DNA of 25,463 bases, taken from the IMG/VR virus record IMGVR_UViG_3300027810_000059, positions 1-25,463 of that record. One strand, given 5' to 3'. The translations under genes were made by a program, and so were the position numbers. Within the stretch, counting starts at the first letter, position 1. The number at the start of each line of letters is the position of its first letter. The stretch is from a virus. Of this stretch, positions 1,460 through 6,885 are shown in pieces. The notes beneath the pieces were generated by a model that was not told the origin of the DNA, searched no databases, and saw only the letters and a program-made list of their open reading frames with translations.

Positions 1460-1511
1460 TTACTTAAATCACGTAATAATAAACTTAGGTAGACTAAGGT
1501 TTACTAAGTAA
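1460..1511 (+). promoter_or_regulatory. Nested inverted repeats in the groEL leader
   Basis: The 89-nt gap before groEL holds an outer inverted repeat, TTACTTA (1460-1466) with TAAGTAA (1505-1511). Inside it is a hairpin, AAACTTAG (1481-1488), loop GTAGA, CTAAGGTTT (1494-1502), with one bulged G. A further near-palindrome GTAAAGTTTAC lies just upstream. This could be an operator, an RNA structure controlling the chaperonin mRNA, or a weak terminator for the preceding gene. No clear promoter consensus was identified. Confidence 0.4.
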
Positions 1512-1536
1512 TAAAATATAATCTAATTTAATAAGC

Positions 1537-3090
1537 ATGTCAAATCAAATTGTTAAGAACCTTGCCTTTGGTGAGGAAGCTAAAAACAACGTATTTAAAG
1601 GTATAGAAAAACTCACAAAAGCTGTTAGTTCCACTTTAGGGGCTAGCGGTAAATGTGTGTTACTAGAAAACGAATTAGGACAACCTGTTATAACCAAAGA
1701 TGGTGTAACGGTTGCAAATTCAATAACACTTAGAGATCCTATTGAGAATATGGGTGCAACGCTTTTAAAGGAAGCAGCTAGGCAAACTGTGAAAGAAGCT
1801 GGAGATGGAACCACAACAGCTACAGTCTTAGCACACTCAATATTATTAGAAGCATACGCTGCAAGTAATAGCGGATCTAGGGAAATGAAAGAAGGTATTG
1901 AATCAGCTACCAAAAAAGTGATTGCATATTTAGAAAAGTTAGCAGTACCCGTTGAGGGGGATATGGTAAACCATGTTGCAACAATTTCTTCTAACAATGA
2001 TAAAGAACTTGGTAATGTTATTGCTGAAGCTTTTAAGCAAGTAGGTAAAAACGGGGTTGTTACTATGGAGGTTTCAAACGATAGCGAAACAAGTTACGAA
2101 GTAATAAACGGAGCCGCAATAGATAAACCCTTAAAAAACTTTCACTTTATCACAGATGAAAGTAAAAAAGAAGCTGTACTTGAAAACCCATTAGTATTAC
2201 TAGTGGAAAACAAAATAGAGAACATACGTAAAATTCAAAGCGTTTTAGAGTATGTTATAAAAAACAATGAGCCTTTATTAATTATTGGTGAAGCAGACGA
2301 ACAAGTCGTATCCGCTTTGGCTATGAATAAAATGAAAGGTAATATTAAGGTCAATATTATTGACACTCCTGACTTTGGAATATACAGAAAAGAAAAGCTT
2401 CAAGATTTAGCTCTACTAACAGGTGCTACGGTCGTAAATGAAGACCTTGGTGACGACTTAGATATGATAGAGGTAGAAATGCTAGGAAAGTGTTTAAAGT
2501 CCATTACAAACGACCAGGAGACTATTATACAAGTAGGTGACACTTCTATTGAAGTACAGGAAGTGATCGATTCTATACAAGATGACATTAAAAGTGAAAC
2601 TTTACCAGGTAAACTTAATAGATTAGAAAAAAGATTAGGTTTATTATCTTGTAAAGTAGCTGTTATAAAAGTAGGTGCAAGTTCAGAGGTTGAGCTTAAG
2701 GAAAAGCAAGATAGAGTTGAGGATGCAATGTGCGCTACGAAAGCTGCTATTAAAGAAGGTATTGTGCCAGGCGGTGGAATTGCTTTGTTAAATGCTTCTA
2801 CCTACATTAAGCCAAGCAACGATAACGAGCAGGTTTTATTAGAAGCTATTAAAGCTCCTTATTTAACTATACTAAAAAACGCCGGTTTAGAAGTGGTGTA
2901 TCCAAAAGGAAAAGGTAAAGGAATTAATGTAGTTACCGGTAAAGACGTTAATATGATTAAGTCTGGTATTATTGATCCTTTATTAGTTACTAAAAGCGCA
3001 TTAAAAAATGCAGCGTCAGTAGCTACAACCATATTGTCAACAGATTGTGTAATCAACAACTTAAGAGTAGAAGATGAAAGCAATAGGTAG
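1537..3090 (+). CDS. groEL: GroEL-type group I chaperonin (Hsp60)
   Basis: ATP-driven protein-folding ring subunit, 517 aa against about 545 in bacteria. All three domains are present. The equatorial ATP site shows TLGASGK (33-39), KDGVTVA with D55, and GDGTTTATVLA with D90. The matching C-terminal elements are RVEDA with D396 (the ATP-hydrolysis Asp), PGGGIAL (411-417) and IIDP with D480. The apical domain spans about residues 190-375. The usual TLGPKG is TLGASG here. The C-terminal GGM tail of bacterial GroEL is missing; the protein ends VEDESNR. The GroES- and substrate-binding face is altered: by alignment with E. coli, Y199, Y203 and L234 become Leu, His and Gln. It is followed by groES with a 17-nt overlap, the reverse of the usual bacterial order. 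The gene ends in TAG. A viral chaperonin probably folds a virion protein such as the capsid. Family assignment is near certain; the client is inferred. Confidence 0.97.
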   Translation: MSNQIVKNLAFGEEAKNNVFKGIEKLTKAVSSTLGASGKCVLLENELGQPVITKDGVTVANSITLRDPIENMGATLLKEAARQTVKEAGDGTTTATVLAHSILLEAYAASNSGSREMKEGIESATKKVIAYLEKLAVPVEGDMVNHVATISSNNDKELGNVIAEAFKQVGKNGVVTMEVSNDSETSYEVINGAAIDKPLKNFHFITDESKKEAVLENPLVLLVENKIENIRKIQSVLEYVIKNNEPLLIIGEADEQVVSALAMNKMKGNIKVNIIDTPDFGIYRKEKLQDLALLTGATVVNEDLGDDLDMIEVEMLGKCLKSITNDQETIIQVGDTSIEVQEVIDSIQDDIKSETLPGKLNRLEKRLGLLSCKVAVIKVGASSEVELKEKQDRVEDAMCATKAAIKEGIVPGGGIALLNASTYIKPSNDNEQVLLEAIKAPYLTILKNAGLEVVYPKGKGKGINVVTGKDVNMIKSGIIDPLLVTKSALKNAASVATTILSTDCVINNLRVEDESNR

Positions 3091-3334
3091 AAACTTAATA
3101 ATAAAAATCATTAAAGAAACAACTACCAAAACAAAAGGCGGTTTAATACTTAATGAAAAAAGTAGAGAAGATATAAGATATCGCAAAGCTACTATTGTAT
3201 CAGTTGGTACAGATGTTGAAGGTGTAAATGAAGATGATGTAATATACTACGACAAAACAGCTGGGCACGGAATAGAAATAGATAATGAAAAACTACACGT
3301 TATAAAGAATCAAGACGTAGTAGTGGTATTATGA
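3074..3334 (+). CDS. groES: GroES-type co-chaperonin, shortened
   Basis: The lid of the GroEL chamber, 86 aa against 95-97 in bacteria. The N-terminal strand (LIIKII) is followed by a mobile loop around residues 15-30, with TKTKGGLIL matching E. coli TKSAGGIVL; the GroEL-contacting IVL becomes LIL. Next come IVSVG and the closing half DDVIYYD...KLHVIKNQDVVVV. Between VSVG and DDVI only about 10 residues remain where E. coli has about 19, so the roof beta-hairpin is absent, as in T4 gp31. The start overlaps the groEL 3' end by 17 nt, which suggests translational coupling and matched amounts of the two proteins. The stop overlaps the next ATG (ATGA). Pairing with the adjacent GroEL is a strong inference. 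Confidence 0.93.
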   Translation: MKAIGRNLIIKIIKETTTKTKGGLILNEKSREDIRYRKATIVSVGTDVEGVNEDDVIYYDKTAGHGIEIDNEKLHVIKNQDVVVVL

Positions 3335-3777
3335 AACGATTAGAAGCAAGGGATATTAAAGATATGAACTTGCTGAAACATTATCGGGTTATACGTAAAT
3401 GGGCATGCAGGAATAACGGTTTAAATGATGCAGATCTTGAACTACTTATTTATTTTGATTGCATGGAGTTTTTTACTAAACACGATTTTAAAATAGGTAC
3501 ATACGCTTATAGCTGGGATAATAGACGATGGAATAGGTTACTAAAAGAGGGATGGATTGTAGTGTGGAGAACACGAAATAGAACCACCCAAAAATATAAC
3601 ATATATAAAGTATCCTTTAAGTGTAAACAGTTAATAAGCAAAATGTATCGAATAATGTTAGGAGAAGAAGATATACCTTCTAGCGAAAAAAGAAACAGTA
3701 TTATGCGTGGTAAAACTTATACAGATAAAGTTTTACAAACAGCAATATATAACGTCAATAAAGATAAAAATAGATAA
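3331..3777 (+). CDS. Small winged-helix-like protein, putative regulator
   Basis: 148 aa, basic, overlapping the groES stop by 4 nt (ATGA), so it is cotranslated with the chaperonin pair. Residues about 15-100 have the look of a MarR-like winged helix. Helices around VIRKWACRNNGL and LELLIYFDCMEFF are followed by WNRLLKEGWIVVWR and a beta-wing (TTQKYNIYKVSFKCKQLI). The C-terminal 30 residues are polar. I recognise this as a small conserved protein of marine Bacteroidota phages, but I cannot name a target. It could regulate late transcription or bind DNA or RNA in packaging. The fold is inferred from the helix/wing pattern only. Confidence 0.5.
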   Translation: MKRLEARDIKDMNLLKHYRVIRKWACRNNGLNDADLELLIYFDCMEFFTKHDFKIGTYAYSWDNRRWNRLLKEGWIVVWRTRNRTTQKYNIYKVSFKCKQLISKMYRIMLGEEDIPSSEKRNSIMRGKTYTDKVLQTAIYNVNKDKNR

Positions 3778-6594: not shown

Positions 6595-6645
6595 TAACTA
6601 TAACTTAAGAAACAATTAATTAATCAAATTAAACTAAATTAAATT

Positions 6646-6885
6646 ATGAGTAAGATTACAAAAGAACAACTAGAAACTATTACTACGCAAAAAAGAAAAT
6701 CAGATGACCTTATCATTAACTTAGGAATGCTAGAAGCTAAGAAGCACGAGCTACTACATACATTTGCTCAGGTTAGCGGAGAACTAGAAGATACTAAGAA
6801 AGATTTGGAAAGCGAATACGGTAAAGTAAATATTGATTTACAAACTGGAGAATATACAGAAGTGGAAGATGAGCAAGATAGTTAG
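6646..6885 (+). CDS. Small coiled-coil protein
   Basis: 79 aa, charged and almost entirely helical. Heptad-like leucines run from about residue 8 to 58 (LETITTQKRKSDDLIINLG, LEAKKHELLHTF, ELEDTKKDLESEYG). The end, VNIDLQTGEYTEVEDE, may be a short hairpin. The pattern EQL..I..Q....LGxLExxKHxLLH...YGxVNIDLxTGEYT recurs in marine Bacteroidota phages near the terminase, to my recollection. The function is unknown. The next gene starts 17 nt before its TAG stop. Confidence 0.65.
   Translation: MSKITKEQLETITTQKRKSDDLIINLGMLEAKKHELLHTFAQVSGELEDTKKDLESEYGKVNIDLQTGEYTEVEDEQDS

Follow-up and report, generated by a model that had tools for sequence, protein, structure and literature searches.

A groEL-first chaperonin pair with overlapping genes in a clade of tailed phages

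The chaperonin locus

The stretch of DNA analyzed here (the window, 25,463 bases) is the entire viral record IMGVR_UViG_3300027810_000059, which may be a genome fragment. Its features of interest are a chaperonin gene, a co-chaperonin gene that begins inside it, and a third gene directly behind (Table 1). The gene order is that given in an earlier note on this sequence, with groEL first; the groES ATG lies at position 3074 and the groEL TAG ends at 3090, an overlap of exactly 17 nt.

Table 1. Positions of the chaperonin genes and neighboring features in the window
Feature	Coordinates	Strand	Basis or remark
groEL, Cpn60 group I chaperonin subunit, 517 aa, without GGM tail	1537..3090	+	PF00118, phrog_5725
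groES, Cpn10 co-chaperonin, 86 aa, mobile-loop GGLIL kept, short roof hairpin	3074..3334	+	PF00166, phrog_3188
17-nt overlap, groEL 3' end / groES 5' end	3074..3090	+	ORF coordinates
orf3331, 148 aa, phrog_17028 (function unassigned)	3331..3777	+	4-nt overlap with groES at its start
AT-rich stretch (possible leader) immediately 5' of groEL start	1509..1532	+	Similar in relatives (upstream alignment)

GroEL and GroES are a group I pair: Both genes were recognized by Pfam and PHROGs, GroEL with E-values of 2.6e-57 (Cpn60_TCP1) and 3e-133 (phrog_5725), and GroES with 1.2e-11 (Cpn10, PF00166) and 6e-13 (phrog_3188). The PF00118 match spans GroEL residues 26–507 and scores 195 bits, where the cut-off is 34.3; the Cpn60 domain is thus full-length. 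The predicted GroES model (pLDDT 84.5) matches Cpn10 structures with an E-value of 5e-6, consistent with a Cpn10 β-barrel. The AlphaFold model of GroEL matches group I structures but is of moderate quality only (pLDDT 73, with a poor equatorial part), and was therefore left out of the question of ring number. The earlier note had listed four ATP-site aspartates, and the alignment bears this out: D55, D90, D396 and D480 of the window align with E. coli D52, D87, D398 and D495, and none of the four varies among the 80 sequences aligned from the viral clade described below. The wider ATP site (D52, D87, G88–T91, D398 and D495 in E. coli numbering) is likewise conserved in 80/80. In all 81 loci (relatives plus window), groES adjoins groEL, pointing to a partner GroES and not a built-in lid.

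Phage context: A terminase, a portal and one virion structural protein were recognized in the window with PHROGs, and the phage is therefore a tailed one. An amidase (PHROGs) lies 0.9 kb downstream of groES, and the pair adjoins lysis, terminase, portal and virion genes; the GC3 of the chaperonin genes resembles that of the remainder of the record. The closest terminase in the phage collection is that of MW202828 (64%), a circular podovirus contig, followed by terminases from phages of Flavobacterium, Cellulophaga, Tenacibaculum and Maribacter. The phage is related to podoviruses of Flavobacteriia, and the ranking of terminases makes a host in this class likely.

Upstream signals and orf3331: Similar AT-rich stretches occur at 1509–1532 and 6621–6644, right before groEL and the ORF at 6646, each following a long intergenic gap. 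The pattern, picked after viewing the alignment, has two matches in the window for 0.06 expected; they may serve as a promoter of the phage or as a translation leader. A short inverted repeat, CTTAGGTAGACTAAG, lies upstream of groEL at 1484–1498; it recurs with changes in one relative (L002) and is absent from more distant ones. The gene behind groES, orf3331, was found in 80/80 relatives, close behind groES except in L065, L072 and L073, where it is about 1 kb off. Its dN/dS against the relative L013 is about 0.03, far under the groES value. Homologues also adjoin groES, in convergent orientation, in MW202828 and the elemo phages. A Pfam search with orf3331 returned nothing over cut-off, and a profile search of the PDB gave weak matches only, several of them MarR-like.

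Relatives and selection

A scan of viral contigs in IMG/VR found 264 that encode relatives of this GroEL, of which the best 80, at 63–99% identity, were examined. In every one of the 80, groEL is followed directly by groES. As these relatives come from separate viral contigs, chance and assembly artefact were ruled out as sources of the order and overlap. Including the window, the overlap measures 17 nt in 57/81 loci, 4 nt in 15/81 and 20 nt in 9/81. Against relatives 88–90% identical in GroEL, dN/dS is about 0.07 for groEL (dN about 0.07, dS about 1) and about 0.05–0.14 for groES; purifying selection on groEL is strong, and groES is under it as well. The earlier note's remark that few phages carry groEL does not hold at this scale: 278 of 50,697 phage records match GroEL, and three collection scans matched 264, 442 and 585 viral stretches.

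Origin of the viral GroEL

In trees from quick searches without bootstraps, the viral clade is monophyletic (SH-aLRT 99–100) and falls outside the sampled bacterial GroELs. Nesting with Bacteroidota was rejected (log-likelihood 32.6 lower, p-AU 0.0138), and the best bacterial identity is 42–43% among the genome-scan matches listed. The earlier note had anticipated a viral clade distinct from the GroELs of Bacteroidota and retaining the overlap, and this is what the tree, the AU test and the overlap in 81/81 loci support. It had also named the opposite outcome, a gene nested in one recent host genus with host-like gene order; no such tree was obtained.

Links to the other groEL-first phage lineages are less sharply drawn. 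One tree groups the window clade with the elemo and MW202828 lineages at a support of 47 and with long branches; elemoB by itself joins the window clade at SH-aLRT 88. The shared neighbor orf3331 suggests that the three lineages may have a common origin.

Gene order follows lineage

Additional scans were seeded with three other phage GroELs, from the MW202828, elemo and immuto lineages; four, one and four loci, respectively, were set aside because no groES was recognized in the flank. The window clade (80/80), the MW202828 lineage (76/76) and the elemo lineage (13/13) place groEL first, while the immuto lineage places groES first in 76/76, as do all 73 bacterial loci. Most pairs in the MW202828 lineage are separated by a gap of more than 200 nt. 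The Cellulophaga phages phi38:1 and Calle_1 carry groES, a small ORF and then groEL. Gene order thus follows lineage. According to PMC9611531, which quotes Marine et al. 2017 (ISME J 11:2479), subunit gene order tracks GroEL phylogeny, and phage-encoded GroEL together with GroES is attributed to the same work (via PMC7185714 and PMC9611531). The novelty of the order implied by the earlier note is accordingly withdrawn: groEL-first phages were already known, among them the isolates elemoB (Elemovirus) and Panino, MW202828 has the same order, and, as far as the quotation in PMC9611531 goes, Marine et al. 2017 had linked order to phylogeny. The window represents a new member of a known group.

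The overlap and how it may have arisen

In the window, groES starts with ATG AAA GCA ATA GGT AGA (MKAIGR), and the groEL frame ends there in TAG. Where the sixth GroES residue is Lys, the groEL-frame stop becomes TAA; where the sixth codon encodes Asn (GGA AAT AAT), groEL runs on to its next in-frame stop, giving the 20-nt overlap. MW202828 reads TAA TAC TAT GAA AGC TAT TGG TAA in the groEL frame across the groES start; it keeps a TAA just upstream of that start, with a 4-nt gap between the genes, and losing this first stop would yield a 17-nt overlap directly. Since the start codons of groES themselves hold a stop in the groEL frame, stop loss can create the overlap, and judging from these junctions losing the groEL stop codon is its most likely origin. 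Such an origin would require no selection on subunit ratio.

Junctions of 1, 4, 17 and 20 nt occur in the elemo lineage, all in the same gene order. The overlap is therefore recurrent, with no fixed length. Two further ideas about the junction were dropped. Nucleotide constraint beyond the overlap shows only a small excess once the overlapped codons are removed. The proposal that the overlap is mutationally locked fails because groEL can acquire an earlier stop through any of several changes immediately upstream that leave groES untouched; within the overlap, the sole single change giving an earlier groEL stop destroys the groES start.

Structural peculiarities of GroEL and GroES

GroEL tail and ring interface: The C-terminal tail of the viral GroELs is 4–9 residues long and lacks GGM in 80/80, compared with 17–31 residues in 35 bacteria. 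A GGM-rich tail typifies group I chaperonins but does not define them. The segment equivalent to residues 415–495 spans 68–70 residues, versus 78–83 in the same 35 bacteria (about 12 fewer); the placement of the gap at the ring interface depends on the alignment, the shortening itself does not. Positions E434, S463 and V464, inter-ring residues of E. coli GroEL, are absent in all 80. This argues for an altered ring interface in the viral clade, group I chaperonins being characterized by two stacked heptameric rings. A shortened GroEL was also seen in the Crassvirales phage phi14:2 (490 aa; L088 3001–4473), where the ring-interface segment measures 58 versus about 81, about 20 residues fewer; no groES was recognized in the flank examined.

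GroEL apical sites: Y203, L234, V263 and V264, sites through which E. coli GroEL touches its substrate and GroES, are replaced by H, Q/E, A and M, respectively, in nearly all members; F204 and L237 are kept. Given these changed apical sites, the function of the chaperonin may differ.

GroES roof: The tip of the mobile loop reads GGLIL in the window, and its second Gly and first Leu are invariant in 30 sequences. The stretch equivalent to E. coli residues 44–64, which includes the roof hairpin, measures 12 residues in 77/81 sequences and 14 in 4/81; it measures 16 in 29/30 Bacteroidota loci and 20–22 in most other bacteria. Two Nitrospirota GroES sequences also have a 12-residue roof segment, and the short roof is hence not uniquely viral. 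In Bacteroides phage SJC03, a 'hypothetical protein' before groEL (L084 3718–3981) proved to be a GroES with the same 12-residue roof, yet its GroEL is Bacteroidota-like. A search of open papers found no description of the tail, interface and roof features for this clade.

Proposed role in infection

We propose, with high confidence, that the locus encodes a complete group I chaperonin, of an old viral lineage found in podoviruses akin to phages of Flavobacteriia, that would serve to fold phage proteins, its gene overlap having arisen by stop loss. During infection, the phage would make its own chaperonin, whose ATP-driven cage would fold phage proteins, virion proteins most likely among them. 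Ribosomes ending groEL may go on to start groES at the overlap, and special ratio control would not be required. Because the pair is complete, the 'self-sufficient' viral folding machine of the earlier note is plausible.

The missing GGM tail, the shorter ring-interface segment and the shortened roof together suggest an enlarged or open cage, perhaps single-ring, for phage proteins. Loss of the GroEL C-tails and trimming of the GroES roof would be expected to widen or open the cage in the manner of T4 gp31, a protein without roof loops whose complex with GroEL accommodates the capsid protein gp23 (PMC6318259). A far more specific version, to which we give a low probability, is a redesigned chaperonin built from a tailless GroEL, in one ring or in weakly paired rings, and a roof-less GroES. 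Its cage would be enlarged or open at the top and reserved for a large phage protein, and it would be co-expressed with orf3331.

The earlier note had read the overlap as coupling that implies controlled subunit ratios. A selected regulatory device, in which translational coupling fixes the GroEL:GroES ratio, would account for the presence of an overlap, at one of three lengths, in all 81 copies of the clade and for the codon identity of the last 15-codon window of groEL, the highest in the gene (0.72; mean 0.54, SD 0.057). Much of that conservation, however, lies inside the overlap, where changes also alter groES. The next junction in the record is a 4-nt overlap, and several more fall within 0–4 nt; considering also the variable overlap length, its recurrence in the elemo phages, the gap in MW202828 and the sufficiency of simple stop loss, we regard the ratio device as unlikely and do not retain the claim. 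A recent capture of a host groEL, with the order rearranged afterwards, has precedents in other phages, as the GroELs of SJC03, pv27 and 2.275.O fall inside host-like bacterial clades. For the window, it was rejected by the tree and the AU test: the low identity to the bacterial matches listed, the position of the clade outside all sampled bacteria and the rejected Bacteroidota nesting leave it a very small probability.

Two other readings assign the gene pair a different task. The chaperonin might mainly buffer the host under conditions such as cold or stress, and so keep it productive, rather than fold phage proteins; most Southern Ocean viruses of the set in PMC8407431 encode at least one GroEL/GroES analogue, and a role in cold adaptation has been proposed there. 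The position of the genes beside lysis, terminase, portal and virion genes and the changed apical sites speak against host buffering, and we consider it quite improbable. Alternatively, the viral GroES could serve the host GroEL, as T4 gp31 does (PMC6318259), with the viral GroEL reduced to a decoy or moonlighting protein, to which its changed apical residues would also be suited. Every member keeps an intact ATP site and groEL is under strong purifying selection, which makes this very hard to credit. Folding of phage proteins by the complete viral pair thus remains the preferred reading.

Hundreds of environmental phage contigs encode this or a related pair, and isolates exist in related lineages (elemo phages, Panino); virally supplied folding is therefore open to laboratory testing. 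If the lost tail, interface segment and roof do enlarge the cage, the clade would offer a natural experiment on chamber size and ring number versus client.

Comparison with known systems

T4 gp31 resembles the window GroES as a phage GroES analogue without roof loops. It differs in that its partner is the host GroEL, and its structure (1g31) is a weak fold match to the window GroES (E 0.003). Phage EL gp146 and the OBP chaperonin are likewise phage-encoded Cpn60 homologues, but no GroES partner is known for them and they are far more divergent (EL is 22% identical to GroEL, PMC7185714). The chaperonins that Marine et al. 2017 reported from virioplankton share with the window a phage group I chaperonin and, according to the accounts in PMC9611531 and PMC7185714, an order that tracks GroEL phylogeny.

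Maribacter phage Panino (PP540027, PMC11590407), a flavobacterial podovirus, also has groEL before groES; in contrast to the window, a 44-aa ORF separates the two genes and the orf3331 homologue is not adjacent. MW202828 (ctfjg026, Manatee Spring) shares the groEL-first order, the short roof, an adjacent orf3331 homologue and the closest terminase, and its GroES is the only GroES match in the phage collection (39.5%), whereas its GroEL is very divergent, a gap takes the place of the overlap and the orf3331 homologue is convergent. In the isolate elemoB (Flavobacterium phage, Elemovirus, NC_062741), a second gene beside the terminase (L082 312–854; 180 aa) carries the annotation 'co-chaperonin GroES'; it gave a marginal GroES profile match (E 0.002) and no Pfam Cpn10 match. 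The chaperonin locus of elemoB differs from that of the window in a GroEL only 38% identical, an orf3331 homologue on the opposite strand and an overlap of 1 nt (4, 17 or 20 nt in some elemoB relatives), but shares groEL followed by groES, a tailless GroEL, an 83-aa GroES with a short roof, and an orf3331 homologue adjoining groES.
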